Positions 24,287 to 45,755 of a stretch of DNA of 55,729 nucleotides are shown in pieces (the first letter of the stretch is position 1; each line of letters begins with the position of its first letter). The translations under genes and the position numbers were made by a program. The stretch is from NCBI GenBank assembly GCA_017431035.1, contig JAFRLW010000020.1, forward strand, positions 1 to 55,729, given 5' to 3'. Origin of the DNA: Clostridia bacterium. Its GTDB lineage: Bacteria; Bacillota; Clostridia; Oscillospirales; Acutalibacteraceae. The notes under the pieces were generated by a model that searched no databases, was not told where the DNA came from, and saw nothing but the letters and a program-made list of their open reading frames with translations.

Positions 24287-24315
24287 AAGCAGGGAAACTC
24301 CCTGCTTTCTTTTTT
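24287..24315 (+). terminator. ROK gene terminator
   Basis: Stem AAGCAGGGA (24287-24295) with TCCCTGCTT (24299-24307), AAC loop, then TCTTTTTT. Confidence 0.9.
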
Positions 24316-24325
24316 GGCTGGACAT

Positions 24326-24354
24326 TTAGAAGGTATAATGTTATTATATATAAT
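24326..24354 (+). promoter_or_regulatory. Putative promoter of the signalling operon
   Basis: TTAGAA (24326-24331), 17 bases, TATAAT (24349-24354); another TATAAT at 24334-24339 lacks a good -35. Which one is used cannot be decided by eye. Confidence 0.4.
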
Positions 24355-24398: not shown

Positions 24399-25880
24399 AT
24401 GCAATTTACTTTTTCGGTGGCTGATTTAATAAACACTATTTTCATTTCGGGTGGTATAGGTATCAGTTTGTTATCACTTCTTCAAATTACGGCGTCTATC
24501 CACCTCAAAAAGCAAGTGAGATATTATTTCCAGGTTTTCTTTACTTTAATTCTTTCATATATTTCCTGTCACCTTGCAAGAGAAATAATGAACGGAATGC
24601 CGGGCGGTGCCGTCCGTACGGCGCTTTATATAGTTACTTTTGCCGAAATAACACTTGCAGGCTTTATGGCGCATATTATGTCGCTTCTTGTAATCGCCGT
24701 TTCAAAACTTGATAAAAAGGCGAATATAAAACTTGTCGTTTTACTTTATAGTTTTCTTATAGTTCACATAGCAATTCTCGTTCTTTGTGAACCGTTTGAC
24801 CTTGTATATGGTTTTGACAAGGCAAATCTTTATTATCGCGGAAAATACTATTTGCTTTCAAACATTTGCCCTGTTTTGATGTTGATTTTTGACGTGGTGT
24901 TATTGCTTCAAAACCGCAAAAAAATCTCAAAACCGGTTAAAATTGCCTTTTGGAATTATATAATTGCACCGGTAATCGCTATTCTACTTCAGGCGTTTTC
25001 ACCCAGAATACAGTATATTATTTTTGCAACCGTCGGCGCTTCGGTTTATATGTTTTCGGTTATAATAAACAATCAAAACGAAGAGTATAACAGGCAAAAG
25101 GTTGACAATATGAGAATAGATACCGAACTCACTATGGCGTCGGCAATTCAGGCGGATATGTTGCCTAATATATATCCCGCTTTTCCCGACAGACCGGAGT
25201 TTGATATTTATGCCACAATGAACCCCGCAAGAGAAGTAGGCGGAGATTTTTACGACTTTTTCCTTGTTGATAATGACCATCTTTGTATGGTTATGGCGGA
25301 CGTATCCGGAAAAGGCGTTCCTGCGGCACTGTTTATGATGGCTTCAAAAATCATACTTGCCAATAACGCTATGATGGGTAAATCACCGGCTCAAATACTC
25401 ACCGATACAAACAATTCAATATGCTCTAACAACCGTATGGAAATGTTTGTTACGGTATGGCTCGGTATTTTGGAAATATCTACGGGAAAACTTACCGCCG
25501 CAAATGCAGGTCACGAATATCCAGCTATTAAACATGCAAACGGGGATTTTGAACTATATAAAGATAAACACGGTTTTGTAATCGGCGGTATGAGCGGTAT
25601 AAAGTATAAAGAATATGAAATAAACCTTGAACCGGGCTCTAAAATGTTTCTTTATACCGACGGTGTGCCTGAGGCTACCGACGCAGAGAATAAAATGTTC
25701 GGAACAGAGCGTATGCTTTCGGCACTCAATGCGGAAAGTTCGGCAGAGCCTAAAAAAATACTTGAAAATATAAAAACCACAGTAGACGGTTTTGTAAATG
25801 ATGCAGAGCAGTTTGACGATTTGACAATGCTTTGTATGGAATATACGGGAAATAAGGGAGGAGAAAAAAATGGCAAATGA
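24399..25880 (+). CDS. Membrane SpoIIE/RsbU-type PP2C phosphatase
   Basis: A 493-residue protein with about seven hydrophobic segments (roughly 10-30, 45-65, 73-102, 110-130, 152-170, 185-200, 205-224) and a cytoplasmic linker helix (VDNMRIDTELTMASAIQADML). The C-terminal SpoIIE phosphatase domain (about 265-485) has metal-site motifs REVGGDFYD (D283), ADVSGKGVPAA (D301), FLYTDGV (D421) and FDDLTM (D473). It should dephosphorylate the STAS proteins encoded downstream in response to a membrane or extracellular signal. It overlaps the next gene by 11 bases. First gene of a five-gene partner-switching operon. Confidence 0.9.
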   Translation: MQFTFSVADLINTIFISGGIGISLLSLLQITASIHLKKQVRYYFQVFFTLILSYISCHLAREIMNGMPGGAVRTALYIVTFAEITLAGFMAHIMSLLVIAVSKLDKKANIKLVVLLYSFLIVHIAILVLCEPFDLVYGFDKANLYYRGKYYLLSNICPVLMLIFDVVLLLQNRKKISKPVKIAFWNYIIAPVIAILLQAFSPRIQYIIFATVGASVYMFSVIINNQNEEYNRQKVDNMRIDTELTMASAIQADMLPNIYPAFPDRPEFDIYATMNPAREVGGDFYDFFLVDNDHLCMVMADVSGKGVPAALFMMASKIILANNAMMGKSPAQILTDTNNSICSNNRMEMFVTVWLGILEISTGKLTAANAGHEYPAIKHANGDFELYKDKHGFVIGGMSGIKYKEYEINLEPGSKMFLYTDGVPEATDAENKMFGTERMLSALNAESSAEPKKILENIKTTVDGFVNDAEQFDDLTMLCMEYTGNKGGEKNGK

Positions 25881-27447
25881 TGTAAACACCGTAGTAGTAA
25901 ATCTTGCAGGCAGAATAGACTCAAACAATGCGAACGATGTTGAAAAAGATATACTCTTAAAACTCGAACAAAAGGATAATTATGCGGTCATACTGAACGC
26001 TAAAAATCTTGAGTATATTTCAAGCGCAGGACTTCGTGTTATTCTTCGTGTAAAAAAATCCCACCCCGACCTTAAAATAACCGAGGTTAGTACCGAGGTT
26101 TACGATATTCTTGAAATGACCGGTTTCACCGAGATGATGACCGTTGAAAAGGCGTACCGTGTGGTATCGGTAGAGGGTTGTGAAGAGATAGGTCGCGGCG
26201 CAAACGGAACTATATACCGTATTGACCAGGATAACGTTGTTAAAGTGTATAACAATGCCGACGCTCTTGCCGATATTCAGCACGAGCGAGAGGTTGCCCG
26301 CCTTGCGCTTATACTCGGTATTCCCACCGCTATTTCTTATGATGTGGTGAAAGTAGGGGAGAGTTACGGTTCGGTATTCGAACTGCTTAACGCAAGATCT
26401 TTTTCAAAAATACTCTCTACCGAGCCTGAGCGTTTCGACTGGTGCGTTAAAGAATACGTAAATATGCTTAAAAAAATACATAGCACCATAGTTCCCGACG
26501 GCAAACTCCCTGATATGAGGGAAACTGTGCTTGAATGGGCAAACTTTATGCAAGACTATTTGCCCGAGGATAAGGCAAAAAAACTCCTTGCTTTAGTAAA
26601 CGAGGTGCCCTACGATAATCATATGATACATGGCGATTATCATACAAAAAACCTTGAACTTCAAAACGGAGAGGTTTTACTTATTGATATGGATACCTTG
26701 GCTATAGGTCACCCGATTTTTGAACTTGCCTCTATGTATAACTCGTTTATCGGCTTTTCGGAGACCAACCACGAGATAATAAAGAAGTTTCAGGGCTTTG
26801 ATTTTGAAACAGGCAAAGCGTTTTGGAGAGCATCTCTTTCAATGTATCTCGGTACTGATGATGAGAAAAAGATAGAAGAGGTAGAAAATAAAGCGAGAAT
26901 AATCGGCTATATTCGTTTGATACGCCGTTCTATCCGCCGCAAAGGGCTTGAAACGGCTGAGAGTAGAAAAGAAATAGAATACTGGAAGAGTGAACTGTTA
27001 GAACTTTTGGACAGCACAGATACGCTGCTCTTTTCCACAAACGAACTGCAGGTTGAGGCGGTAAAAGAAAATCTCCCGACGGTGCTTTCCTTTATTGAAG
27101 AGCATTTAGAAGAAAACGGCTGTTATCCTAAAGACCGGATGCAAATAGCTATTGCCGCAGAGGAGATTTTTGTAAATATCGCTAATTATGCTTATGCCCC
27201 GAAGAGCGGAAAAGCAACGGTCAGAGTCGAGGTTTCAAAAGACCCTATAAGAGTAATTATAACCTTTATGGATAACGGAAAACCCTTTGACCCGACCAAA
27301 AAAAGCGACCCCGATATAACACTCTCCGCCGATGAGCGTGATATAGGGGGACTTGGCATATTTATGACCAAAAAAATGATGGATAACGTTGTTTACGAAT
27401 ATAAAGACGGCAAAAACATTTTAACTATCGAAAAAATCCTGAAGTAA
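25870..27447 (+). CDS. STAS - APH-like kinase - HATPase three-domain fusion
   Basis: A 525-residue fusion. Residues 1-95 form a STAS anti-anti-sigma domain with the phosphorylatable serine in YISSAGLRV (S51/S52). Residues about 103-350 are an aminoglycoside/choline-phosphotransferase-like kinase: GRGANGTIYR, K125 (VVKVY), HGDYHTKN (254-261, with D256 and N261) and LIDMD (D273). Residues about 395-525 form an RsbW/SpoIIAB-like HATPase with N-box EEIFVNIANYAY, DNGKPFDP (D468) and DIGGLGIFM. Antagonist, kinase-like and anti-sigma-like parts are thus on one chain. I infer that the HATPase phosphorylates STAS serines and the SpoIIE protein reverses this; the APH-like substrate is unknown. Confidence 0.88.
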   Translation: MANDVNTVVVNLAGRIDSNNANDVEKDILLKLEQKDNYAVILNAKNLEYISSAGLRVILRVKKSHPDLKITEVSTEVYDILEMTGFTEMMTVEKAYRVVSVEGCEEIGRGANGTIYRIDQDNVVKVYNNADALADIQHEREVARLALILGIPTAISYDVVKVGESYGSVFELLNARSFSKILSTEPERFDWCVKEYVNMLKKIHSTIVPDGKLPDMRETVLEWANFMQDYLPEDKAKKLLALVNEVPYDNHMIHGDYHTKNLELQNGEVLLIDMDTLAIGHPIFELASMYNSFIGFSETNHEIIKKFQGFDFETGKAFWRASLSMYLGTDDEKKIEEVENKARIIGYIRLIRRSIRRKGLETAESRKEIEYWKSELLELLDSTDTLLFSTNELQVEAVKENLPTVLSFIEEHLEENGCYPKDRMQIAIAAEEIFVNIANYAYAPKSGKATVRVEVSKDPIRVIITFMDNGKPFDPTKKSDPDITLSADERDIGGLGIFMTKKMMDNVVYEYKDGKNILTIEKILK

Positions 27448-27459
27448 AGGGTATAGACA

Positions 27460-29223
27460 ATGATAAAAAAGGTTTTCAGACAAATGCTTGTTACACAAAT
27501 CCTTTCCGCTATGACGGTTATGATTTGTATGCTTGTAGACAGTATTATCATAGGACGTTTTTTAGGTGTAAACGCAATGGCGGCATACGGTCTTTCAAAC
27601 CCCGTGCTTCTCGTTTTTGCCGCAATAGGCAGTATGCTTTCAGCCGGTATTCAGGTTGTTTGCGGAAAATCATTGGGTTGCGGAGACAGAGAGGGAACAA
27701 ACCGTTGTTTTTCAGCGGCGGTGCTATTAGTCACGGCAATATCCGTAATCGGACTAGTGCTTGTTTTCATGCTTTCTTCACCCCTTTGCGTATTGCTTGG
27801 CGCCGGAAAACCGGGACCTGATAATGAGGTTTTCAGCCTTACAAAAGATTACCTTAGAGGATTTATAATCGGTGCGCCGGCTTTTCTGTGTTCAATGATT
27901 ATGGTGCCTTTTATGCAAATGTCGGGCAACCGCACAAGACTTGTTGTAGCCGTAGCGGCTATGACAGTATTTGATATAGTTTTTGACCTTTTAAACGTAA
28001 AGGTCTTTCATGGCGGCACCTTCGGTATGGGACTTGCCTCAAGCCTTAGTTACTATATTGCCTTTTTTATCGGCGGCGCATATTTTGTAAAGAAAAAATG
28101 TATGTTCCGCTTTAGCATTAAGGGAGTAAAAAAAGCCGTTTTCGGCTCAATTTTGAGAAACGGAATACCCACACTTGTAAATCAGATAAGTCTTGTATTC
28201 CTTGTTTTCTTATTTAACAAACTGTTACTGCTTATTCGTGACGGAGGAAACACGGCGGTAGCGTCCTATTCGGTTATTTCCACTATAGGAAATATATGCT
28301 ATTGCTTTGGCGCCGGCATAGGCTCGGTTGCTTTAACACTTGCCGCCCTGTTCCATAGCGATGAGGACAGAAAAAATCTTCAAACTGTTGTGAAAACAAT
28401 GAGTCACTATGCTATTTTGCTATCGTCTGTTGTGACCGTCACGGTTTTTGTTTTGGCTCCGTTTTTAGTAGACCTTTTTCTAAAAGGCAACGTAGAGGCA
28501 AGGTCAATGGCGGTGCTTGGAGTAAGGCTTTTTGTTCTTTCTTTGATACCGTGTTCCTTTAACACTTCTCTTAAAAACTATTATCAAGGGACAAACAGAG
28601 TGGGGTTCTCCGAGATTATTTCGGCGCTTCAAAGTTTTGTCTTTACGGCAATAGGCGCTCTTGTTTTAAGCCCCATACTCGGCACAACGGGCATTTGGCT
28701 TTCGTGGGTGTTCGGCGAGAGCATAACTCTTTTGTTTATTTCAATTATTGTTTGGAAAAAGAACAAAAAAATATCTCTTTCGGCAAATGCCTATGCTCTT
28801 ATACCAAACGATTTCGGCGCCAAGGCGGAAGACTGCCTCGATTTGACCGTGCGCTCGGTAGAAGAAGCGGTTGCGGCGGCGGAAAAAGCCGAAGAGTTTT
28901 GTAAAAATCATAACGAAACCGAGCGAAACAGCAAGTTTATCTCGCTTTGTATTGAAGAAATGGCAAATAATATAGTTGATCACGGCTTCAAAAAAGATAA
29001 AAGAACCGACCACGTTATCGAAATACGTCTTATATTCAAGGAAGATAAGCGCCTTATACGTATCAGAGATAACTGCGTAAACTTTGACCCTGTGGCTTAT
29101 ATGGATCTTCATAAAAACGATGATCCTACAGTTCATATCGGTATTCGTCTTGTGATGAAAATGGTTAAAGAGGCAAACTATGTTTGTTCGCTGGGACTTA
29201 ATAACCTTACACTTGTTATGTAA
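27460..29223 (+). CDS. MATE transporter fused to a C-terminal HATPase domain
   Basis: Residues 1 to about 435 form a complete 12-helix MATE-type antiporter (N-terminal MICMLVDSIIIGRFLGVNAMAAYGLS). After a linker (about 440-490), residues about 490-587 form an anti-sigma-kinase-like HATPase: N-box CIEEMANNIVDHGF (E499/E500, N504), the metal/ADP motif RIRDNCVNFDP (D537) and HIGIRLVMKM. The usual Gly-rich lid is short. An RsbW-like domain attached to a multidrug or lipid-type transporter is unusual; transport may be gated by a STAS partner from the same operon. It follows the three-domain fusion by 12 bases. Confidence 0.88.
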   Translation: MIKKVFRQMLVTQILSAMTVMICMLVDSIIIGRFLGVNAMAAYGLSNPVLLVFAAIGSMLSAGIQVVCGKSLGCGDREGTNRCFSAAVLLVTAISVIGLVLVFMLSSPLCVLLGAGKPGPDNEVFSLTKDYLRGFIIGAPAFLCSMIMVPFMQMSGNRTRLVVAVAAMTVFDIVFDLLNVKVFHGGTFGMGLASSLSYYIAFFIGGAYFVKKKCMFRFSIKGVKKAVFGSILRNGIPTLVNQISLVFLVFLFNKLLLLIRDGGNTAVASYSVISTIGNICYCFGAGIGSVALTLAALFHSDEDRKNLQTVVKTMSHYAILLSSVVTVTVFVLAPFLVDLFLKGNVEARSMAVLGVRLFVLSLIPCSFNTSLKNYYQGTNRVGFSEIISALQSFVFTAIGALVLSPILGTTGIWLSWVFGESITLLFISIIVWKKNKKISLSANAYALIPNDFGAKAEDCLDLTVRSVEEAVAAAEKAEEFCKNHNETERNSKFISLCIEEMANNIVDHGFKKDKRTDHVIEIRLIFKEDKRLIRIRDNCVNFDPVAYMDLHKNDDPTVHIGIRLVMKMVKEANYVCSLGLNNLTLVM

Positions 29224-29243
29224 TTTTTCAAAGGACTGTTGTT

Positions 29244-30110
29244 ATGACCTATCCTAAAAAAATTGATCTTCATATGCATACGGTTATCTCTGACGGAACA
29301 GATACGCCAAGTGAGATAATAGAAAAGGTAAAGGAAAAAGGAATAGAACTTTTTTCGGTCACCGATCACGATGCGGTAAAAAGCAGCGCACTTGTAAAAC
29401 AGTTGCTGAAAAAAGGCGACCCCGCTTTTGTACCCGGTGTTGAGTTTTCCTGCAAAGACAGTGAGGGAAGGTATCATATCTTAGGCTATAATTACGATAT
29501 AGATGCAAAACCTATAACCCAACTTGTCAATACGGGACATAACTACCGTATTGAAAAACTAAGGAAAAGGCTTGATTTTTTAGAGAGTGAGTTTTCATTT
29601 ACTTTTGGAAAACAGGATATAGACGCCCTTTTTTCGCTTGATAATCCCGGCAAACCGCATATAGGTAACATTATGGTAAAATACGGATATGCAAAGACAA
29701 AAGAGGACGCCATCAATAATTATATAAACCGTTTTCACTCAAAAAACGAATACGTAAAACCGGACGACGCCATAAAATCTATTCTTCTGTCAAACGGCAT
29801 ACCCGTTCTCGCCCACCCGGTCTACGGCAGGGGAGATGAACTCATTTTGGGAGAGGATTTGGTTTATAGAATTAAAAAACTCATTTCCTTTGGACTTATG
29901 GGCGTTGAGGCGTTTTATTCGGGATTTACCTCAAAACTTCAAAACGAGGTTTTATCACTCGCAGAGGAATACAATCTTCTTGTTACGGCAGGCAGTGACT
30001 ATCACGGCAAAAATAAAATGGTAACCTTAGGCGATACAAATCTTAATAGTGAAGAAAACTATCCTCAAAGCCTAAAAAGGTTTATCGATATGGTTTATAA
30101 TAAAAAATAA
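29244..30110 (+). CDS. PHP domain phosphoesterase
   Basis: A 288-residue PHP protein with metal-ligand motifs IDLHMHTVISDGTDTP (7-22), SVTDHDAV, GVEFSC, AHPVYG and AGSDYHG. This layout matches the YciV/TrpH-like PHP group that hydrolyses nucleoside 3',5'-bisphosphates or related phosphates. It lies in the signalling operon between the MATE-HATPase and STAS genes, so its product may belong to the same pathway; a second PHP gene sits with HATPase genes in the hydrogenase operon. Confidence 0.85.
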   Translation: MTYPKKIDLHMHTVISDGTDTPSEIIEKVKEKGIELFSVTDHDAVKSSALVKQLLKKGDPAFVPGVEFSCKDSEGRYHILGYNYDIDAKPITQLVNTGHNYRIEKLRKRLDFLESEFSFTFGKQDIDALFSLDNPGKPHIGNIMVKYGYAKTKEDAINNYINRFHSKNEYVKPDDAIKSILLSNGIPVLAHPVYGRGDELILGEDLVYRIKKLISFGLMGVEAFYSGFTSKLQNEVLSLAEEYNLLVTAGSDYHGKNKMVTLGDTNLNSEENYPQSLKRFIDMVYNKK

Positions 30111-30136
30111 TATTTCATATATACGGAGGAAAAACT

Positions 30137-30436
30137 ATGCTTAACATTACTAAAACAGGCGAAAACGAAAACCTTATTATTACTCTCGAGGGCAGACTCG
30201 ATACCACAACCGCACCCCGATTTGAAAGCGAACTCAGTTCGGCTTTAGAGGGGGTTAAATCCCTTACAATAGATATGGAGAAGTTAGACTACATATCTTC
30301 GGCAGGACTTCGTGTCATCCTCTCCGCCCAAAAACGTATGAATAAAGAGGGCGAAATGAAAATCAAAAACGTCGGCGACACTATTATGGAGATATTTGAG
30401 GTCACCGGTTTCTCGGAGATTTTGACTATAGAATAA
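30137..30436 (+). CDS. STAS anti-anti-sigma-like protein
   Basis: A free-standing 99-residue STAS domain with DYISSAGLRVIL, whose Ser pair is the phosphorylation site, and the usual ending EIFEVTGFSEILTIE. It is very similar in layout to the STAS domain of the fusion at 25870. It is the natural soluble partner for the two HATPase domains and the SpoIIE phosphatase upstream. GGAGG precedes the ATG. Confidence 0.93.
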   Translation: MLNITKTGENENLIITLEGRLDTTTAPRFESELSSALEGVKSLTIDMEKLDYISSAGLRVILSAQKRMNKEGEMKIKNVGDTIMEIFEVTGFSEILTIE

Positions 30437-30521: not shown

Positions 30522-32483
30522 GTGGCGGACAGGTTTATTCTGCATTCAAATTATAAGCCTACGGGCGATCAGCCTGAGGCAATAGATAAATTAGTTAAAG
30601 GTATCGAAAACGGCGATAAAGAGCAGGTGCTGCTCGGAGTTACCGGTTCGGGTAAGACCTTTACTATGGCAAACGTTATCGAGCGTGTAAACCGCCCGAC
30701 GTTAGTTCTTGCCCATAACAAAACACTTGCCGCACAACTTTGCAGTGAGTTTCGAGAGTTTTTCCCCGAAAATGCGGTTGAGTATTTTGTTTCCTATTAT
30801 GACTATTATCAGCCGGAAGCATACATTCCCGGCAGTGACACCTATATAGAAAAAGACTCCGCCATAAATGATGAGATAGACAAACTTCGCCACAGCGCCA
30901 CCTGTGCGCTATCGGAACGCAGGGACGTGATAATCGTCGCCTCGGTATCCTGTATATACTCTCTCGGCGACCCGATAGATTATCGGAATATGGTTATATC
31001 TCTCCGTAACGGTATGGAAAAAAGCCGTGACGAACTAATCAGAAAACTTGTCGATTTGCAGTACGAAAGAAACGATATCAACTTTGTAAGAAACAAGTTC
31101 AGAGTTCGTGGAGATACGGTAGAAATCTATCCGGCTTATGCTTATGAAAACGCAATAAGGGTAGAGTTTTTCGGTGACGAAATCGACCGTATAAGTGAGA
31201 TAAATCCGCTTACCGGTGAAACAAAACAAATCTTAAAGCACACCGCCATTTATCCTGCTTCGCATTATATTGTGCCGGGGGATAAGATGATGGAGGCAAC
31301 AGAGGATCTGTTAAACGAAATGGAAGAGCGTGTCAAGTTTTTTGAAGAAAACGGAAAACTTATCGAGGCTCAGCGTATAAGACAACGCACGGAATATGAT
31401 GTTGAGATGCTAAGAGAAATCGGCACCTGCAAGGGTATAGAAAACTATTCCCGTGTGCTTTCTCGCAGAAAACCCGGCAGTACGCCCTCAACCTTGCTTG
31501 ATTATTTCCCCGATGATTTTTTGCTTTTTGTCGATGAGTCGCACGTGACCTTGCCGCAAGTCAGGGGTATGTACGGTGGAGACAGGGGAAGAAAAGAAAA
31601 TCTTGTTGAGTACGGTTTTCGTCTGCCTTCGGCATTCGATAACCGCCCGCTTAATTTTGATGAGTTTTATTCCCATATAAACCAGGCGGTATTTGTTTCG
31701 GCAACACCCGGCGAGTTTGAAAAAGAACACGCCGCCGAGATTGTAGAGCAGGTTATAAGACCGACCGGACTTTTAGACCCTGAGGTTATAGTAAAACCGT
31801 CCGAAGGACAAATTGACGACCTTGTTTCCGAGATAAATGAGAGAAGCAGCAAGGGCGAACGTGTTCTTGTTACAACGCTTACCAAAAAAATGGCGGAAGA
31901 CCTAACCGAATATCTTGAAAATCTTTCCATAAAAGTTCGCTATATGCACTACGATATAGACACTATGGAGAGAATGGAGATTATAAGGGATTTGCGTCTT
32001 GGCGAGTTTGACGTTCTCGTGGGTATAAATCTTTTAAGAGAGGGACTTGATATACCCGAAGTATCGCTTGTCGCCATACTTGACGCCGATAAAGAGGGCT
32101 TCCTTCGAAGCGAGACTTCGCTTATTCAAACTATCGGTCGAGCCGCAAGAAATGCCGGCGGACAGGTTATTATGTACGCCGACAGCGTGACAAGATCTAT
32201 GGAAAACGCCATTCGTGAAACCGAGCGCCGCCGTGAAATACAAAAACGGTACAACGCCGAACACGGTATAGTGCCTAAAACCATTAAAAAAGATGTTTAC
32301 GATATTATTGAAATAGGCAAAAAAGTGCCTAAAGATAAAAACGGCAAACGTCTCTCCCGTGCTGAAAGGGAGGAACTTATCAGCCAGCTTACAAGAGAGA
32401 TGCAACAAGCGGCAAAAATACTTGAGTTTGAACACGCCGCCGCTTTGCGTGACCGTATAAATAAGTTAAGAAGCGGAAAGTAA
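30522..32483 (+). CDS. uvrB: Excinuclease ABC subunit B
   Basis: The damage-verification helicase of nucleotide excision repair, 653 residues. The P-loop [15 protein letters not shown], the beta-hairpin region [21 protein letters not shown], helicase motifs ([25 protein letters not shown]) and the C-terminal UVR motif ([22 protein letters not shown]) are present. The start is GTG at 30522 with AAGGGAAG upstream. uvrA is not adjacent here. I see no GAAC-N4-GTTC LexA box upstream. Confidence 0.97.
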
Positions 32484-34310: not shown

Positions 34311-37300
34311 ATGAAAAACAAACTCTTAAAACTGCTCAAAAACAAATGGACCATTATTATAGCAAGTGTATTGCTTGTAGCCATACTCGGTACTGTATTT
34401 GCGCTTAACTTTAATAATTGGTTCGGCACAGAAGATACAAGCGGCGAACTGTCTTCCGATATATTCTGGAACGTAAACCGCTTTGATTATGCCTATCAAA
34501 CGGGCAAAGCCTCCGACCTTGTACGTGAACGTGATAAGACAGACGGCACGTACCACATACTGTTTTGCGCCCTTTCTCAACAGGGACGTGCGGTTAACCG
34601 CCGTGCAAAAAACAGTACGGTTGTTGCAAAAATAGATATGAACACCGCTATGGGACTTAAGTTTGATGAGACTGGCGTTGTAGTTGACGTTGTACCTCTT
34701 GAAGAAATGGGATACAAAATCACCGCCGCCCGTGTATATGTAAACGGAACGCCCGAAAAGGGAAAACCCGTTATCATCAATACTTCTGACCGTGGCGACG
34801 GCGTTGAGAAAAAAATAGATATTCCGTCTTCAGTTCCCGTATATGATGTTTCGGGTACTACCGGTGAGCCGGGTACACGTCTTACAGAGGGCTTTATTGA
34901 CGGCGACTGTATCTACGTTGTAAGCGATAAAAAAGACAATATAAAATATGTTGTTGTTACCGAGCGTAACGTTGTAGGTACTATATACTATAATAAAGAC
35001 CGTAAATATGACTCAAGGTTCCAGAACACCACAAGAGAGCAAAGCGCCGACGGATACTATTATATTGATCTCGCTTATGAAGGCAAAGTTGAAACCTTCT
35101 ATACAAAAGATTATACACTTGTAAACTATATGGATAGAACGGCAGGTAGGGCGTTCGGACTTGAACTTGACGAAAACGACCCCCACCTCATAACCGACTA
35201 CTTCCGTACAAAAGAGGTTACAAAGGGTAACATCGTTGCCTCTTATTATAATGTAGTTAGTCTTGATAACGGCGTTTTGAAGGTTAGATATACCGGCAAA
35301 CGCAACTCGCCTAAGTTCGGCGATGAACAAACCTATACCCTCGCCAAAAACTGTCGCGCTATGGACGTTACGGGTATTGAGGGTGTAAACTACGGCGAGT
35401 GGACCGATGTAAGACCCGGCGATAAGGTACAATGCTACCTCAACGGCAGAGGCAAGATTTGCTTTATTCACGTAATAGCAAGTCGTACGGTAGGTTGTGA
35501 ACTCTACTGGAGTTTATCTCGCAAATGGAACACATCAACAAATACCTGGACCAGACAACCGGAGGCTGACGGAAAATACGTATTTAACGTTGTGGCAAAG
35601 AGCACACCCGGCGTTGTTAAACAGGTTTATACCTACAACCGTCAACTTGCCGAAGAGATAGACAGAAAATATGCGGCTCCCGTATTCGGACTTAAACTAA
35701 ACGGCAACGAGATAGTCGCTCACTATACACCGCTTCAGACAGTGGGCGGAACAAGTATAGCATCCTATTATAAGATAAGTTCAATAGACGGAAAAACGCT
35801 CAACTTTACCTCACCTAAAACCGGAGATAAAACCTGGGCGGATATGGTGGAAAAACCGCTTATATTTAACACCCAAAACCTATGTAAAGTTGATAAAGTA
35901 TCAGTAGGCGATAAAGTACATTCTCTCCTCAACTCTATGGGTGAAGTACAAATCATCTACATAATCGAAAAAGCCCCTGAGGTTGTAAAAACGGCATATT
36001 GCCCGCATTGTAACAGGACTGTTTCCTGGTATAGATTTAACGGCGGAAAAACAACCGAAGACGGCAGACACTATATAATGACCGAAGACTATGAGATCAG
36101 AAGCGACAAGGCGGCATTTATCGTAGGCGGCTCAAATACCGTATTTAGTTATAAAACTACAAATACCGTTCTTGACCTTAACGGTCATAGCATTACATCC
36201 GACTACCGCATACTTGATATAGACGATCATAACAGTCTTTACGTTATGGACTCTAAGGGCGGCGGAGTTATGCGCTCAACCAGTCAAAAATATACCGATA
36301 ACGGTATAGCCGTTCGTATGGGCGACGCTTCCGAGTTTACACTTGCAGGCGGCACTATAGATATGTCGGCAGTTACCGAAGTCGGTTGTCAGGGAATGTG
36401 CGTTTACGTGGCGCCCGGTTCAACCTTCAATATGAAAGGCGGCACCATTAAGGGATGTAAGTCACTATACGGAACTGCATATACAATAAGCGGAAAATCG
36501 GCTACCGGCGGAGGTATGGGCGGCTCGGTACACGTTATGGGTCCTGCTACCCGTACAAACGACAACGGTCAGTCGGTTAGTCTAACGGGCGCTGTATTCA
36601 ATATGTATGACGGCGTTATAACCGGCGGTCGTGCCGAGGGCACCAAAAACGGTGACGGCGGTAACATAAGCGTTCTAAGGGGCGGTACATTTAATATGTA
36701 CGGCGGTACTGTTAAGGACGGTTACAGTTCGGGTCACGGCGGTAACATCAACGCCTTCAAAGGCTCTAACGTCAATATGTACGGCGGTTCGGTAATAAAC
36801 GGTACTGCAAAAGGCAACGGCGGTAATATCAATGTTGCAACCGATAGTTTGCTTGATATGTCAGGCGGAAAAATCACCGGCGGTAAATCAAGCGCTAAGG
36901 GTAATAACGTTTACGTTGACGGAAAAATAAATCTTAAAGGCACATCAAAAATTACCGACGGCGATCTCTATATGGCGACAAGTTCAACCGTTACACCTAG
37001 CAATCTGAAAGACGGCGCTAAGTTTGAAGTAAGCCGTGTAAGAGCCGGTGTGTTTGCAAAGAATATAGAAAATGCAAAATCCTATGAAAAATACTTCAGT
37101 TCTTATCGTGACGGACTTGCGGTTGTCGGCAATAACAGTGAAAAGACCCTCTCGCTTGTAAACTCAGGTCACGTTCACGCAAAAGACGGTAAAGCAGCTT
37201 CTGAAGATGACGATAAGGTATATTATGAACCGCTCACTCAAAGCGATATTGACGATAGGTTCAGCGGTAAACTACCGACCCACGGCAGTTACTACCTTGA

Positions 37301-39263
37301 AGAAGACCTTGTAGTTACAGGTCAGACTTCCGATGACGGCGACCTTAACATTTGCTATAACGGTCATACCGTTGCAATATTCAGTAACGGTTCAAGTTCC
37401 GCAAGATTACTGCTTCTCGGCAACATAGAACCTGAGAAAATGTATGCAGCCGGAACAAGTAGTACCGAAATCAACCTTTGCGACTGTAAAGACGGCGGCG
37501 GAATGGTAAAAGCCGACGCTGAGAGCAAAGCAAAGGGCGGAATGATTTTGATAAATGGCACTCATAAAGTAACCCTTAATATTTATGACGGACTTTATGA
37601 TGCTTCCGGTATAACTTCCACAGAAAACGGACCCTTTATGGTTGTGAACGGTCCTAAATCCAAAGTGGCTGATGATGCGGCGGAAGTTAATATCTACGGC
37701 GGTCAGATAATCGGCGGTGAAACCACCGGTAAGGGCGGCGCTATCTATGTTGACTCAAGCCTTGTTTCCTTTAATATCAAAGGCGGAACAATAGAGGGCG
37801 GTAAGGCGCTTAAAGGCGGTAATATCGGCGGATATATTAAACTAAGTGCTAAAGACTGCATTATCAAAGACGGTATTGCCGAAAGTGCCGACGGCTCGGC
37901 AGAGGGACTCGGCGGAAACATATTTGTTGAGGGCTCCGGAAAACTAAGCCTCAATAACGTAACTGTTACAAACGGCAGCGCAACAAACGGCGGAAACATC
38001 TATATCGGCGGAACAAACACAACCGCTTCGATAGAAGACTGCTATATAACAAACGGTTCGTCAATAGAACAAAACTCAAAAGGCGGAAAAGGCGATAATA
38101 TCTATGTTAACGCCATAACCTTGAATCTAAAGGGCGATATGACCTTTGATGGAGTAGATACCGATAAAACCGATGTTTATTTGGCAAGTGAAAATGCTAA
38201 TATTAAAGTAGCCGATTTGGGCGACGATACCAAGGTTTCGGTTGAGTTTAACTATAACGGTACCGTAGTAGTAGGCGGCGCTGAATACTTCGATAAGTTC
38301 AAGTTTATTTCAGAAACGCAGGTGGAAAAATCGGGCGACGATATAGTCACCAAGGTTGACACCACACATGAGCATTGTGTTTGCGGCGGTGACACAAATG
38401 TCGGCGACCATACTTCACACAAAAAGGTGGTTTATGAACCGCTGACACAGGAGATTATAACCGATACTTATTCGGGCAAATTACCTGTAAAAGGCAACTT
38501 CTACCTTGAAGAAGACATAACGCTTTCCGGTCAAACGTCGGTTAACAGCGGAAGTCTTAACATCTGCTATAACGGTCATACAATGTCCATTAAGTCAAGC
38601 GGCTCAAGTGCTGACAGAGTTTTGATGCTCGGAAGATCTTCTACCACCACCAAGCAAACCGTTAACCTTTGCGATTGTAAAGGCGGCGGCGGAATGAAGA
38701 AGACCGACGCAACAAGTACTGCAACAGGCGCTATGATATATGTCAATGCCCAGAGACCTACAACCGTTAATATATTCGGCGGTGTATATGATGCAAGTGG
38801 CATTAAGACTAACAACAACGGCGGTCTTATCCACGTTGCTGCGACCAACACACCTACGCTTAATATTTACGGCGGTAAGTTTATCGGCGCTATGGCAAGT
38901 AAGGCTTCAACCGGTACAATTGTAAACGTTGCCACCGGTGCGTTACTTAACCTCTATGGCGGTGAGTTCACCTGTAATGATGGAACAGCCGAAAATGTTT
39001 ACGGTATAAACTATCCGACTGAGGACGAACTCACTATTTCAGGTAAAATCGTTATAAACGGTGAAAACGGTGCGGTGCTTCGCCTTGGCTCAAAAACCAC
39101 ACTTAAGGTCGGCGACCTTAAAGAAGGCTCAAAGATTTGCATACTGCCCTCAAGCGAAGGCGTGTTTGCAAAAGATGCTGCAAAATATAAGGATTTGTTT
39201 ACTACAACATCCGACTATAAAATAACCGTTTCGGGTGATGACCTGAAAATAGAAAAGAAATAA
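34311..39263 (+). CDS. Giant anchored repeat protein (1650 aa) with parallel beta-helix-like regions
   Basis: The N-terminus has a basic cytoplasmic end and one membrane anchor (about 14-33). Residues about 40-560 carry two similar units (HLITDYFRTKEVTKGNIVASYY and IVAHYTPLQTVGGTSIASYY) each ending in a GDKVxxxLNxxGxxxxIxxI segment. A CPHC motif at about 564 opens the first beta-helix-like region, rich in repeats such as GGTFNMYGGTVKDG and NGGNIN. Two further copies begin near 953 (HVHAKDG) and 1352 (HEHCVC), both followed by YEPLTQ...SGKLP...YYLEED...G.TS...LNICYNGHT. No LPXTG motif is at the C-terminus. I do not recognise a defined function; adhesin or polysaccharide-binding roles are guesses. 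Confidence 0.75.
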   Translation: MKNKLLKLLKNKWTIIIASVLLVAILGTVFALNFNNWFGTEDTSGELSSDIFWNVNRFDYAYQTGKASDLVRERDKTDGTYHILFCALSQQGRAVNRRAKNSTVVAKIDMNTAMGLKFDETGVVVDVVPLEEMGYKITAARVYVNGTPEKGKPVIINTSDRGDGVEKKIDIPSSVPVYDVSGTTGEPGTRLTEGFIDGDCIYVVSDKKDNIKYVVVTERNVVGTIYYNKDRKYDSRFQNTTREQSADGYYYIDLAYEGKVETFYTKDYTLVNYMDRTAGRAFGLELDENDPHLITDYFRTKEVTKGNIVASYYNVVSLDNGVLKVRYTGKRNSPKFGDEQTYTLAKNCRAMDVTGIEGVNYGEWTDVRPGDKVQCYLNGRGKICFIHVIASRTVGCELYWSLSRKWNTSTNTWTRQPEADGKYVFNVVAKSTPGVVKQVYTYNRQLAEEIDRKYAAPVFGLKLNGNEIVAHYTPLQTVGGTSIASYYKISSIDGKTLNFTSPKTGDKTWADMVEKPLIFNTQNLCKVDKVSVGDKVHSLLNSMGEVQIIYIIEKAPEVVKTAYCPHCNRTVSWYRFNGGKTTEDGRHYIMTEDYEIRSDKAAFIVGGSNTVFSYKTTNTVLDLNGHSITSDYRILDIDDHNSLYVMDSKGGGVMRSTSQKYTDNGIAVRMGDASEFTLAGGTIDMSAVTEVGCQGMCVYVAPGSTFNMKGGTIKGCKSLYGTAYTISGKSATGGGMGGSVHVMGPATRTNDNGQSVSLTGAVFNMYDGVITGGRAEGTKNGDGGNISVLRGGTFNMYGGTVKDGYSSGHGGNINAFKGSNVNMYGGSVINGTAKGNGGNINVATDSLLDMSGGKITGGKSSAKGNNVYVDGKINLKGTSKITDGDLYMATSSTVTPSNLKDGAKFEVSRVRAGVFAKNIENAKSYEKYFSSYRDGLAVVGNNSEKTLSLVNSGHVHAKDGKAASEDDDKVYYEPLTQSDIDDRFSGKLPTHGSYYLEEDLVVTGQTSDDGDLNICYNGHTVAIFSNGSSSARLLLLGNIEPEKMYAAGTSSTEINLCDCKDGGGMVKADAESKAKGGMILINGTHKVTLNIYDGLYDASGITSTENGPFMVVNGPKSKVADDAAEVNIYGGQIIGGETTGKGGAIYVDSSLVSFNIKGGTIEGGKALKGGNIGGYIKLSAKDCIIKDGIAESADGSAEGLGGNIFVEGSGKLSLNNVTVTNGSATNGGNIYIGGTNTTASIEDCYITNGSSIEQNSKGGKGDNIYVNAITLNLKGDMTFDGVDTDKTDVYLASENANIKVADLGDDTKVSVEFNYNGTVVVGGAEYFDKFKFISETQVEKSGDDIVTKVDTTHEHCVCGGDTNVGDHTSHKKVVYEPLTQEIITDTYSGKLPVKGNFYLEEDITLSGQTSVNSGSLNICYNGHTMSIKSSGSSADRVLMLGRSSTTTKQTVNLCDCKGGGGMKKTDATSTATGAMIYVNAQRPTTVNIFGGVYDASGIKTNNNGGLIHVAATNTPTLNIYGGKFIGAMASKASTGTIVNVATGALLNLYGGEFTCNDGTAENVYGINYPTEDELTISGKIVINGENGAVLRLGSKTTLKVGDLKEGSKICILPSSEGVFAKDAAKYKDLFTTTSDYKITVSGDDLKIEKK

Positions 39264-41133: not shown

Positions 41134-41631
41134 ATGAAAAAGAAAATAAGCAAATTACCTTTCAAAGGTACAAGAGAACAAGAAGAGCAACTTATGGCTG
41201 TTATCAATGAGAATAAACACGATAAGAGCAATCTTATGGTTGTTATGCAAAAGGCTCAGGATATTTATGGATATCTTCCTTTTGAAGTGCAGGAAATGAT
41301 AGCAGAGGGAATGGATGTTCCGCTTGAAAAAGTATATGGCGTTGCTACCTTCTATGCTCAGTTCTCTCTTTCACCTAAGGGTGAATATAACATTTCGGTA
41401 TGTCTTGGTACCGCCTGCTATGTTAAAGGCTCCGGCGATATTTTTGATAAACTTTCCGAAAAACTCGGAATCGGTGCCGATGAGTGCACCGCTGACGGTA
41501 AGTTTTCTCTTACTGCCTGCCGTTGCATAGGTGCTTGCGGTTTGGCACCGGTACTTACCGTAAACGAAGAAGTATACGGCCGTCTTACTGTTGACGATGT
41601 TGACAGTATACTTGCTAAATACGGTGCATAA
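41134..41631 (+). CDS. hydC: Bifurcating [FeFe]-hydrogenase subunit HydC (NuoE-like)
   Basis: A 165-residue thioredoxin-fold [2Fe-2S] protein of the NuoE/HydC type. Cluster ligands are C90, C95, C131 and C135 (CLGTACYVKG and CRCIGACGLAP). The N-terminal helical part (VMQKAQDIYGYLP, VYGVATFYAQF) is typical. It passes electrons between HydB and the rest of the trimeric hydrogenase in the cytoplasm. AGGAGGA precedes the ATG. First gene of a ten-gene operon ending with hydB and hydA. Confidence 0.93.
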   Translation: MKKKISKLPFKGTREQEEQLMAVINENKHDKSNLMVVMQKAQDIYGYLPFEVQEMIAEGMDVPLEKVYGVATFYAQFSLSPKGEYNISVCLGTACYVKGSGDIFDKLSEKLGIGADECTADGKFSLTACRCIGACGLAPVLTVNEEVYGRLTVDDVDSILAKYGA

Positions 41632-41662
41632 TCCGCTTTAGTTTAAGGGGTAATAATAAAGT

Positions 41663-42019
41663 ATGAAAATCAGCAAGATTAAAGAATTACTTGATGCACA
41701 GGTTATCTGCTGCGAGGAAAACACCAATGAGGATGTTTTTTCCGCCTGCGGCAGCGATATGATGAGCGACGTACTCGCATACGTTAAAGATCAGGCCGTT
41801 CTTTTAACCGGTCTTGTAAACTCTCAGGTGGTAAGAACCGCCGAGATGATGGATATGCGTTGTATCGTTTTTGTCCGTTCCAAAATGCCTACTGCCGAAA
41901 TGATTGAACTCGCTCGTGAAGCCGGTATTGTTATTATGGCTACCAAAAAGAGAATGTACGAGGCCTGCGGTAAACTTTACAGCAACGGTCTTGTAGGCAA
42001 TAAGGTAAGAGATGTCTGA
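41663..42019 (+). CDS. DRTGG-domain protein
   Basis: A 118-residue protein that looks like a stand-alone DRTGG domain (LLDAQVICCEENTNEDVFSACGSDMMSDVLAYV), a small regulatory fold also found in HPr-kinase-like and phosphotransacetylase-like proteins. DRTGG genes often accompany [FeFe]-hydrogenase operons in Clostridia (from memory). Its last 8 bases overlap the HATPase gene. A paralogue lies at 43761. Confidence 0.75.
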   Translation: MKISKIKELLDAQVICCEENTNEDVFSACGSDMMSDVLAYVKDQAVLLTGLVNSQVVRTAEMMDMRCIVFVRSKMPTAEMIELAREAGIVIMATKKRMYEACGKLYSNGLVGNKVRDV

Positions 42020-42437
42020 ACTGTTAAAGTTTCATTTTGACGTTGACGGAACTGATTTTACTTCGGCAGGTCAGGCTTCCGTTCAGGTCAAAAAGAACTT
42101 AAGACAGCTTGGTATCCCGCCCGAAATTATCCGTCGTGTTTCAATTGCGATGTATGAGGGCGAGATAAATATGGTGATACACGCCGGCGGCGGTGAGGCG
42201 GACGTTATAGTTACCGAAACAGCTATAGAAATACGTCTTCACGACCACGGACCCGGTATCAAAAATATTGACCAGGCTATGCAGGAAGGCTTTTCAACCG
42301 CAACCGATACTATTCGTACACTCGGTTTCGGTGCGGGAATGGGACTTCCAAATATGAAACGCTATTCCGATGATATAGAAATACATTCGGAACTCGGCGT
42401 CGGCACCGATATTATAATGAGGGTAAATTTAACCTGA
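42012..42437 (+). CDS. RsbT/RsbW-like HATPase (anti-sigma-type kinase)
   Basis: A 141-residue GHKL ATPase domain only. The N-box region is RRVSIAMYEGEINMVIHAGG, the ADP site is HDHGPGIKN, and a glycine lid follows (LGFGAGMGLPNMKRYSDD). This layout resembles the RsbT/RsbW serine kinases of partner-switching systems. It overlaps the DRTGG gene and precedes the HydS-like hydrogenase. No STAS protein is encoded in this operon, so its target is unclear. Confidence 0.83.
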   Translation: MSELLKFHFDVDGTDFTSAGQASVQVKKNLRQLGIPPEIIRRVSIAMYEGEINMVIHAGGGEADVIVTETAIEIRLHDHGPGIKNIDQAMQEGFSTATDTIRTLGFGAGMGLPNMKRYSDDIEIHSELGVGTDIIMRVNLT

Positions 42438-42469
42438 TTTTAATTGTGCGCCGTATTAAATATAAGGTG

Positions 42470-42485
42470 TGACGGTTTACCGTCA
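42470..42485 (+). other. Hairpin before the HydS-like gene
   Basis: TGACGGT (42470-42476) and ACCGTCA (42479-42485) form a 7-bp inverted repeat just upstream of the GTGGGG Shine-Dalgarno, at the only sizeable intergenic gap (64 bases) among the first eight genes of the operon. It could be an mRNA processing or translation-control element. Confidence 0.5.
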
Positions 42486-42501
42486 ACGTGGGGTAACAAC
42501 C

Positions 42502-43755
42502 ATGAATAATTATGAACACTCGGTTTATCTTGATGAACAAAAATGTAATGGCTGCACCACTTGTTTGAAACATTGTCCTACCGAGGCAATTCGTATAAGA
42601 AACGGACACGCCGTAATCAGTCAGGAACGTTGTATCGACTGCGGCGAGTGTATTCGTGCTTGTACGCACAATGCAAAAAAAGCCGCTTGCGGAAATCTCG
42701 GCGACATGGATAAGTTCAAGTGGAAAATCGCCCTGCCTGCACCTTCACTCTACGGACAATTTGAAAATCTTGATGATGTTGACTATGTCCTTGCCGGACT
42801 TAAAAATTTGGGCTTTGACGATGTTTTTGAGGTGTCAGCCGCCGCAGAAATAGTCAGCGCCTATACAAGAAAATATCTAAAGGTTGAAGGGGTAAAAAAA
42901 CCGGCAATAAGTTCGGCTTGTCCCGTTATTATAAGACTTATTGCTCTGCGTTTCCCGTCTTTGACCGATAATATCATACATATGCTGCCTCCTATAGAGG
43001 TTGCCGCTCAAGCCGCTCGTAAAAAAGCGCAACAGGAACACCCAGAACTGAAACCTGAGGAGATAGGCGTTTGCTTTATTTCTCCCTGCCCGGCAAAAGT
43101 CAGTTATGTAAAAAACGGTTTTGCCGAGTATAAAAGTCAGGTTGACGTTGTCGTTTCAATGAGCGATATATATTTTCAACTCATAGCAAAAATGAAACCG
43201 GATGATAACGTTGAATCAATTTCCAATTCCGGTATGATAGGAATTGGTTGGGCGTCATCCGGCGGTGAAGCCACCGCAATTTTTAACGAGAGTTATCTTG
43301 CGGCGGACGGAATAGGGAACGTTATACGTGTTCTTGACCAGATAGAAAACGGCAATATTCCCCAACTTGAGTTTATTGAACTCAATGCTTGTACCGGCGG
43401 TTGCGTAGGCGGAGTTTTAACGGTTCAAAACCCGTTTATCGCAAAGGCAAGATTGCAGTCGCTAAGGAGATATCTGCCGGTTTCAAGAAACTTTATTACC
43501 GATGAAAACGAGTTTATCCCCGAAGATTATCTTTTTGATGAGATGCCTACCTATCATCCCATATCAAGACTATCCGACAGTATGGCTGAGTCAATGCGGA
43601 TGATGGCGGAAATCCAAAATCTTAAAGACAGTTTGCCGGGTATAGATTGCGGCTCTTGCGGCGCTCCGTCTTGCAGAGCGTTTGCAGAAGACGTTATAAA
43701 AGGTACTGCGTCAATAGATAAGTGCCTGATTAGACTAAAAGAAAAAACGGAGTGA
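42502..43755 (+). CDS. HydS-like putative sensory [FeFe]-hydrogenase
   Basis: 417 residues. Two [4Fe-4S] sites (C15, C18, C21, C25 and C44, C47, C50, C54) precede the H-cluster domain, with ligands C140 (SSACP), C196 (SPCPAK), C297 and C301 (ELNACTGGCVGG). The position before C140, normally the proton-shuttle cysteine of TSCCP, is A139, a feature recalled for slow, sensor-type HydS enzymes. The C-terminus has a further Cys motif (C383, C386, C391, C408) typical of an Fe-S domain and no PAS domain. I start at the ATG at 42502 after GTGGGG; a GTG at 42469 would add 11 odd residues. It may sense H2 or redox state and signal to the HATPase/PHP/DRTGG genes around it. Confidence 0.85.
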   Translation: MNNYEHSVYLDEQKCNGCTTCLKHCPTEAIRIRNGHAVISQERCIDCGECIRACTHNAKKAACGNLGDMDKFKWKIALPAPSLYGQFENLDDVDYVLAGLKNLGFDDVFEVSAAAEIVSAYTRKYLKVEGVKKPAISSACPVIIRLIALRFPSLTDNIIHMLPPIEVAAQAARKKAQQEHPELKPEEIGVCFISPCPAKVSYVKNGFAEYKSQVDVVVSMSDIYFQLIAKMKPDDNVESISNSGMIGIGWASSGGEATAIFNESYLAADGIGNVIRVLDQIENGNIPQLEFIELNACTGGCVGGVLTVQNPFIAKARLQSLRRYLPVSRNFITDENEFIPEDYLFDEMPTYHPISRLSDSMAESMRMMAEIQNLKDSLPGIDCGSCGAPSCRAFAEDVIKGTASIDKCLIRLKEKTE

Positions 43756-43760
43756 TAGCG

Positions 43761-44087
43761 GTGACAGTATCCGAACTTATAGAAAAAGCCGGTTTCAAAG
43801 CCGCTACATTGCCTGAACCTGACAAAGAGATAACCGGCGTTTATATAGGCGATCTGCTTAGTTGGGTTATGGGCAGAGCAAACTCAGGCGACGTTTGGAT
43901 AACCATTATGTCTAATATGAATATTTTGGCGGTTGCTTCTCTTGCCGATACTGCGTGTATTCTCGTGGCGGAGGATGTTGAACTGTCACAAGATTTGCTC
44001 ACAACCGCAAAACAAAAAAATATCAATGTTCTTCTTACCGAACTCGGTGCTTACGAGGCTGCGGTTAAGATATCTAAACTTATATGA
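43761..44087 (+). CDS. Second DRTGG-domain protein
   Basis: A 108-residue DRTGG-like protein (TVSELIEKAGFKAATLPEPDKEITGVYIGDLLSWVMGRANSGDVW in outline) related to the one at 41663. I prefer the GTG at 43761, 8 bases after GGAG, over the GTG at 43752 that overlaps the upstream stop. Its end overlaps the PHP gene by 4 bases (ATGA). Confidence 0.72.
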   Translation: MTVSELIEKAGFKAATLPEPDKEITGVYIGDLLSWVMGRANSGDVWITIMSNMNILAVASLADTACILVAEDVELSQDLLTTAKQKNINVLLTELGAYEAAVKISKLI

Positions 44088-44812
44088 ACCGTTATTATTA
44101 CGATTTACATATTCATTCCTGCTTATCCCCGTGCGGTGACGATGAGTCAACGCCCGATAGCATAGCGGGAATGGGCGAGTTGAACGGGCTTGACGTTATG
44201 GCGCTGACCGACCATAACACCACAAAAAACTGTCCTGCCTTTTTTGCTGCGGCAAAAAGACACAATATTATACCTGTTGCCGGTATGGAACTGACCACCG
44301 CTGAGGAAATACATATAGTTTGTCTTTTTCCGACGCTTGACAGCGCCCTCTCGTTTGACAGTTTTGTCGATTCTCGCCGTATAAAAATACAAAACCGTAC
44401 CGATATTTTCGGAAATCAGTATATTATGGACGAAAACGATAAAATAATCGGTACTGATGATAATCTGCTTTCAAATGCCACTACTATTTCTCTTGATGAG
44501 GTGCCGGACGCCGTTAAAAACCACGGCGGAATATGTTATCCTGCACACGTTGACAGAGAGGCAAACGGCATAATATCGGTTTTGGGCTTTTTCCCGAAAA
44601 CACCTGTTTTTCCCACAATAGAAGTTCACGACGAGAATAAAAGGGAAGATTTAGCCCTGCTTTGTAAAAAAGATATAAAAAAAGTGGTTACAAGCAGCGA
44701 CGCCCACTATCTTTGGGATATAAACGAAAAGACACAGTTCTTTGATCTTGACTGCAAAAAAGAGGACGTCGCACGTTGTCTTATAGAATATTTAGGTGGT
44801 GTATCAGGGTGA
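44084..44812 (+). CDS. PHP domain phosphoesterase of the hydrogenase operon
   Basis: A 242-residue PHP protein: DLHIHSCLSPCGDD (7-20), ALTDHNTTKNC, AGMELTTAEEIH, CYPAHVDR and SSDAHYLWDI supply the metal ligands. The substrate is unknown. It overlaps both neighbours by 4 bases, so it is coupled to the DRTGG and HATPase genes. PHP genes are recurrent neighbours of HydS-type hydrogenases (from memory), supporting a regulatory module. Confidence 0.85.
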   Translation: MNRYYYDLHIHSCLSPCGDDESTPDSIAGMGELNGLDVMALTDHNTTKNCPAFFAAAKRHNIIPVAGMELTTAEEIHIVCLFPTLDSALSFDSFVDSRRIKIQNRTDIFGNQYIMDENDKIIGTDDNLLSNATTISLDEVPDAVKNHGGICYPAHVDREANGIISVLGFFPKTPVFPTIEVHDENKREDLALLCKKDIKKVVTSSDAHYLWDINEKTQFFDLDCKKEDVARCLIEYLGGVSG

Positions 44813-45363: not shown

Positions 45364-45365
45364 CA

Positions 45366-45737: not shown

Positions 45738-45755
45738 TTTGGAGGTAACAAAAAT

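Follow-up and report, generated by a model that had tools for sequence, protein, structure and literature searches.

What does a complete partner switch control when no sigma factor is encoded with it? The question is raised by a five-gene operon at positions 24399 to 30436 of a 55,729-nucleotide contig from a Clostridia bacterium of the family Acutalibacteraceae (the whole contig is called the window below). Partner switches are known mainly as controllers of sigma factors, as with SpoIIE/SpoIIAA/SpoIIAB and RsbU/RsbV/RsbW of Bacillus, which have SigF and SigB as outputs; in a handful of cases the target is a diguanylate cyclase or is unknown. For the operon in the window, the proposal that we favour, and on which we are evenly divided, is a sigma-free partner switch that acts directly on an APH-like kinase, together with a PHP phosphoesterase, and, where present, on a MATE exporter. 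The features of the operon are as follows:

24399..25880, + strand: SpoIIE-type (PPM) protein phosphatase, 493 residues (Pfam SpoIIE, E 2.5e-47)
25870..27447, + strand: fusion of STAS, APH-like kinase and HATPase (STAS·APH·HATPase), 525 residues (Pfam)
27460..29223, + strand: MATE transporter with C-terminal HATPase_c_2 (residues ~465-587), 587 residues (Pfam)
29244..30110, + strand: PHP metallo-phosphoesterase, 288 residues (Pfam PHP, E 6.1e-09)
30137..30436, + strand: free STAS protein with ISSAGL phosphoacceptor motif (S54/S55), 99 residues (Pfam STAS, E 3.3e-18)
24287-24307 and then 24325-24354, + strand: possible operon start, a terminator-like stem followed by a promoter-like site (consensus match only)

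A preliminary description of this DNA had noted five tightly spaced genes with these domains, and the open reading frame (ORF) coordinates and Pfam agree with it: the first pair overlaps by 11 bases, the remaining gaps are 12, 20 and 26 bases, and the Pfam domains of all five proteins exceed the curated cut-offs. Upstream of the operon, a scan for promoters and terminators returned numbers of sites close to those in shuffled sequences. The genome is a metagenome-assembled genome (MAG) of 1.48 Mb in 44 contigs, with an estimated completeness of 95%.

Catalytic and phosphoacceptor residues are conserved throughout the switch. In the SpoIIE protein, a PPM phosphatase, the blocks GGDFY, DVSGKG and TDG are near-invariant across 47 distinct relatives. 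Its N terminus, first described as seven-helix, does have membrane helices, and a crude hydropathy scan finds six hydrophobic segments, so that the number of helices is six or seven. Of 60 distinct relatives of the free STAS protein, 59 keep the SS motif, and the phosphoacceptor serines of the fused STAS domain are kept in all 55 STAS–APH proteins compared. Pfam finds STAS (E 2.2e-11), APH (E 1.5e-14) and HATPase_c_2 (E 7.9e-23) in a single protein, and the AlphaFold model of this protein has a predicted local distance difference test (pLDDT) score of 87.9; our AlphaFold models are single chains and uninformative on partners. Across 31 of 31 distinct full-length relatives, S51/S52 of the STAS domain, H254/D256/N261/D273 of the APH domain and E432/N436/D468/G493-G496 of the HATPase domain are invariant, the last set being that of a GHKL serine kinase. 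The HATPase of the kinase occurs in three settings, joined to STAS–APH, joined to SpoIIE or alone (40, 18 and 11 ORFs, with duplicates counted), a pattern that physical partners would be expected to show and that serves as domain-fusion evidence for contact between these parts. Like the Bacillus switches, the operon thus has a PPM phosphatase, a serine-bearing STAS protein and a GHKL kinase with a Glu/Asn N-box. It differs from them in that its kinase is joined to STAS and APH, a further HATPase sits on a MATE transporter, a PHP protein is encoded alongside, and no sigma factor was found.

To see which of these genes belong together, we considered relatives of the fusion kinase. Among 40 STAS–APH loci fetched, 21 encode STAS·APH·HATPase and are called core loci; partners were counted within 6 kb. 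Full-length STAS·APH·HATPase occurs in 23 genomes, and the 21 core loci omit the window and genome G055, both of which are fusion-adjacent. The partners found are STAS (20 loci), SpoIIE (18), PHP (15), the MATE fusion (5) and sigma factors (0), counts that are lower bounds at the several core loci on short contigs. SpoIIE, STAS and PHP are all present at 13 of the 21 loci, and at 20 of 21 the STAS, SpoIIE and PHP genes all lie on the strand of the kinase. With the window and G055 included, the MATE fusion is present at 7 of 23 STAS·APH·HATPase loci; at a sixth core locus (L191), the contig end falls inside a MATE gene. The same picture emerges from a sample of 394 genomes of the order, in which 27 of the 45 genomes with STAS–APH have no strong match (>400 bits) to the fusion. 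The core is SpoIIE, STAS, STAS·APH·HATPase and PHP, and the MATE fusion is an optional arm: because the core often occurs without it, the transporter is a frequent companion and not the heart of the system. This does not bear out the transporter as the only or main effector, as had been proposed in the preliminary description; the better-conserved candidates for an output are PHP and the APH kinase domain.

A lack of conserved gene order, named in the preliminary description as grounds for refutation, gives a mixed answer. The five genes occur in identical order in one relative of the same genus (L055/L066), and at four more of the 80 named loci with a MATE fusion (L068, L069, L100 and L139) all five parts lie within 5 kb in differing orders. 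The set thus exceeds chance, since the order is shared within the genus and all parts recur at four further loci. Gene content recurs with shuffled order; the exact order was seen in just one near relative among the loci examined. A family of proteins of approximately 200 residues (L109:9161-9772 and relatives) was also seen within 6 kb at 13 of the 21 core loci. One member, scanned against Pfam, had no matches at E 0.01; the idea that the family is a degenerate HATPase was dropped, given this blank for one member and an unconvincing alignment, and the family is left unassigned.

We then asked whether a sigma factor could be the output after all. None is encoded in the five-gene operon, as judged from ORFs and Pfam. 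A Sigma70_r2 search of the whole genome matched 6 genes, whose best NCBIfam names are RpoD, SigG, SigF, SigK, SigE and SigH. All six pass the sigma70-ECF superfamily model, and specific names score above the curated cut-off only for RpoD (domain model) and for SigG and SigK (subfamily model); the set is best named as housekeeping SigA plus sporulation sigma factors. A module that still controls transcription, with its HATPase(s) binding a sigma factor encoded elsewhere, such as SigF or SigG, and with a MATE gene that is merely cotranscribed, would be in keeping with the classical role of HATPase_c_2/STAS/SpoIIE sets as controllers of sigma factors, and SigF and SigG are both encoded in this genome. 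We consider this quite unlikely. SigF is already served by SpoIIAA, SpoIIAB and SpoIIE of its own, on contigs C6 and C7. At all 21 core loci, the 6 kb around STAS·APH·HATPase are free of sigma relatives by BLAST with this genome's six sigma factors as queries, a search by which extracytoplasmic function (ECF) types could be missed. Within 5 kb of the MATE fusion, a sigma factor is present at 2 of 80 loci: L110, with sigF beside spoIIAA/AB, and L124, with sigK. In a profile search of 24 core genomes, sigma genes on the same contig are, among the matches listed, at least 38 kb from the operon. The domains, conserved residues and operon content accordingly uphold the original notion that the set of phosphatase, STAS and GHKL kinase is complete and lacks a sigma factor.

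If the switch acts outside transcription, the APH domain and the PHP protein are its best-conserved candidate targets. The APH motifs HxDxxxxN and IDxD are present, and H254, D256, N261 and D273 are found in 55 of 55 STAS–APH proteins. Matches by fold are led by APH(2'') enzymes; this likeness to drug kinases carries no information on the substrate. The PHP protein is closest to the nucleoside-bisphosphatase/RNase AM group, its best NCBIfam matches being far below the cut-offs (NF041577, 102 bits against 400; NF047791, 98 bits against 375). Among solved structures, 3e0f, a putative phosphoesterase, is the closest by sequence (E 1e-27), and the His/Asp residues are near-invariant across 24 distinct relatives. 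At the 19 STAS–APH loci that have no HATPase, an HD_4-type protein is a neighbour at 8 (L199, L201, L202 and L205-L209, with PHP at none of these) and a SpoIIE–HATPase fusion at 4. The HD_4 protein, which we take to be an HD protein of the RelA/SpoT type, hints that some nucleotide-like metabolite may play a part.

The optional arm is itself an unusual protein. Pfam finds MatE (E 5.8e-26) and HATPase_c_2 (E 2.1e-07; 31.4 bits against a cut-off of 27.4) in the one 27460..29223 protein, which has the MATE fold. Its D27 and D176 align with D41 and D184 of PfMATE, the cation-coupling acidic residues, and are identical in all 81 fusion sequences (80 distinct), as are E500, N504 and D537 of the HATPase part. 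Conservation of the two parts is similar (0.69 for HATPase, 0.74 for MATE). The alignment between the MATE HATPase and the kinase HATPase of the operon spans 115 columns and keeps E, N and D in register. Searches of known structures add little: a profile search of solved structures with the MATE HATPase alone gave no matches at E 0.01, and in two fold searches, one of which barely tests residues beyond 453, no HATPase was among the best 50 matches. The assignment of a HATPase domain on the transporter rests on Pfam (also in L107), the predicted topology and the alignment with the kinase HATPase. At the level of sequence, MATE–HATPase fusions form a conserved protein family, and the preliminary description was right that the transporter carries an anti-sigma-kinase-like domain, an RsbW-like HATPase with Glu, Asn and Asp kept. 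Among more distant fusions, those at L062, L063 and L064 have a degenerate N-box and neighbours that include a GNAT acetyltransferase and SpoIIE; at L063 there are a SpoIIE–HATPase fusion and an LPG_synthase_C protein, and at L064 the cluster adjoins uvrB, as the operon in the window does (uvrB, 30522-32483).

Is this transporter connected to the switch? With a switch gene defined as SpoIIE, STAS, STAS–APH, kinase-HATPase or PHP, at least one lies within 5 kb of 40 of 80 fusion loci and of 0 of 20 ordinary MATE loci from relatives, chosen by us as controls (p 1.4e-5). When spoIIAA/AB are counted in both sets, the numbers become 41/80 and 1/20 (p 9e-5); repeating the 5-kb counts without the approximately 200-residue family leaves them unchanged. 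Contigs extend the full 5 kb on both sides at just 41 of the 80 fusion loci and 16 of the 20 controls, and 26 of those 41 fusion loci have a switch gene. In 38 of the 40 linked cases, the switch gene is on the strand of the fusion. Free STAS is the commonest neighbour (33/80), and SpoIIE, STAS, STAS–APH and PHP all accompany the fusion at five loci (L066, L068, L069, L100 and L139). Across the 394 genomes, STAS–APH is found in 18 of the 20 with a strong fusion match compared to 45/394 overall (p 5e-17), and in 11 of 12 genera. The neighbourhood and co-occurrence tests are not independent of each other, because loci and genomes overlap (L066=G008, L068=G165, L069=G079, L139=G349). Fusions at a distance were followed up in 41 genomes, comprising the 40 without a switch gene within 5 kb and L077, where the operon is 6 kb away; 28 of these encode STAS–APH elsewhere, and in 9 the search gave just a shorter match or a related HATPase. 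One fusion with no switch gene found within 5 kb is that of Ruminococcus sp. FC2018 (L107, NZ_JHXH01000009.1), whose record, alone among the 80, is titled as a strain and not as a MAG or uncultured bacterium; it begins 367 bases ahead of the fusion gene, and the genome (G444) also has a match to the kinase-type HATPase at E 7.8e-60. The MATE fusion is thus tied to the partner switch by both neighbourhood and genome co-occurrence. The nested pattern, in which a strong fusion match nearly always comes with STAS–APH and STAS–APH often comes without the fusion, is more readily explained by a controlled accessory than by an obligate output.

Given the observed gene content, domain architecture, conserved catalytic and coupling residues and conserved linkage, and with no candidate sigma factor found, we infer the binding and phosphorylation steps, the direction of control and the substrates along the following lines. 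The membrane SpoIIE phosphatase would sense a signal and dephosphorylate the STAS serine(s), and the HATPase of STAS·APH·HATPase would rephosphorylate STAS, be it its own, the free one or both. STAS without phosphate may then bind HATPase domains, and this binding would set the activity of the APH-like small-molecule kinase that lies between STAS and HATPase. The APH-like kinase would work opposite or alongside the PHP phosphoesterase, as a regulated enzymatic pair. Where MATE–HATPase is present, the same STAS could dock on its cytoplasmic HATPase, opening or closing export. The earlier idea that the STAS switch controls transport is retained in part: linkage and co-occurrence make the transporter one likely target, and its place as the only effector is lost. 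The alternative named with it, control of second-messenger turnover, stays a conjecture.

Several observations weigh against this scheme. Half of the MATE–HATPase loci (40/80) have no switch gene within 5 kb, and in 4 of the 41 distant-fusion genomes neither STAS–APH nor a related HATPase is matched at E 1e-25. Besides the genomes with strong matches, there are 14 more of the 394 in which the best fusion match is weaker, though near full length (176-307 bits), and STAS–APH is present in 3 of these 14; the combined figure is 21/34 (p 4e-14), and this and the other Fisher p values overstate independence because the genomes are related. In the MATE HATPase, the glycine box is down to one conserved glycine (G561, 79/81), so that ATP turnover may be weak, and the catalytic Asn is lost in the distant relatives L062, L063 and L064. 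In addition, a sigma factor may have been missed, the genome being a 44-contig MAG. An inactive MATE HATPase was rejected for the main family, in which E, N and D are invariant, and is likely for the distant relatives L062-L064. The unlinked half of the loci and the reduced glycine box would both suit a HATPase that simply senses ATP or energy, or is a structural remnant, and has no STAS partner, its neighbourhood reflecting shared regulation only. We judge this very unlikely in view of the co-occurrence with STAS–APH, both for the strong matches and with the weaker ones added, and of free STAS being the commonest neighbour of the fusion.

The direction of information flow could also be reversed. 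The output may be the APH kinase and PHP only, with MATE–HATPase as an input, that is, a membrane-anchored kinase or STAS sink reporting on substrate or export status. That the fusion is dispensable to the core, both at the core loci and in the STAS–APH genomes, is in line with such a role, as is the retention of kinase residues in the MATE HATPase; the reduced glycine box argues the other way. So do four of the 80 fusion loci (L092, L095, L101 and L102, the fusions at L101 and L102 being identical and some of the four contigs being cut short), where the 5 kb around the fusion hold no switch gene other than free STAS, so that no other output of the switch is seen there. On balance we regard a MATE input as somewhat unlikely and return to the transporter as a target of the switch.

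Viewed more broadly, the operon may represent a widespread module of gut Clostridia in which a partner switch works outside transcription, through post-translational control of a metabolite kinase/phosphoesterase and a HATPase-tailed MATE exporter; we hold this tentatively, at a little short of even confidence. The excerpt of PMC8457831 offers a precedent in SiaABC–SiaD of Pseudomonas, where the phosphatase/kinase-controlled STAS-like protein SiaC acts directly on an enzyme, the diguanylate cyclase SiaD; BgrR and HsbD are also described there as regulated by STAS proteins (BgrV–BgrR and HsbA–HsbD). The operon resembles SiaABC–SiaD in this respect and differs in its candidate targets, which are the APH-like kinase, PHP and the optional MATE transporter; Pfam finds no GGDEF domain in the five operon proteins. 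For the STAS switches SypA, RbaV and HmpV, targets are given as unknown in the excerpt of PMC8256260. Among transporters, PMC7367683 describes the STAS protein MlaB bound to the transporter ATPase MlaF in the MlaFEDB lipid transporter. As in MlaFEDB and SulP/SLC26, a STAS protein or domain would be bound to, or part of, a transporter. In those systems the partner is an ABC ATPase or the STAS domain lies within the transporter, whereas here the kinase-type partner of STAS sits on a secondary transporter of the MATE type; the operon has neither an ABC ATPase partner nor a SulP-fused STAS. Compared to MATE transporters of the DinF/PfMATE type, the protein has an additional C-terminal HATPase and 587 residues, as against 440-499 in the MATE chains listed. 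By title or start of abstract, no paper on a MATE–HATPase or STAS–APH–HATPase fusion was found in open-access full text, which is weak evidence of absence. PMC3861447, retrieved with STAS and MATE terms, was set aside as unrelated, its excerpt pointing to separate genes of a metagenomic clone.

If the scheme is right, partner-switch logic would reach as far as transport and the phosphorylation of small molecules, both under direct control, in bacteria of the gut and rumen that are poorly understood, and a secondary transporter would be gated in a new way. Since the fusion physically displays the target, what sigma-less STAS switches act on becomes testable with single proteins.

Other explanations for the operon were set aside. 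A defence system was discounted, since none of the five proteins has a PADLOC match at E 0.001. A riboswitch-controlled transporter was likewise dropped; at gathering thresholds, Rfam matches the window only once, with a T-box at 53763-53981.

The same genome has a second switch-like locus on contig C38 (L050:50-7371), with ABC and FtsX/MacB genes, a free STAS that is 58% identical to that of the window, a fusion of STAS to an acyl-CoA synthetase (AMP-ligase) and an Acyl_transf_3 protein. AMP-ligase as a general output was set aside, near-full-length relatives of STAS–AMP-ligase being present in just 3 of 295 genomes, this one included. At L103, an AMP-ligase without STAS comes after MATE–HATPase.

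Elsewhere in the window, a hydrogenase cluster (41134-47570) contains two further HATPase proteins, a pair of DRTGG proteins and one more PHP protein, with no sigma factor among the nine proteins scanned. A 1650-residue protein at 34311-39263, with no Pfam matches at E 0.001, adjoins a ceramidase-like protein. The T-box leader, on the - strand, is an ordinary one at the start of the threonyl-tRNA synthetase gene, the true start of which is probably further in, because the T-box overlaps the called start.

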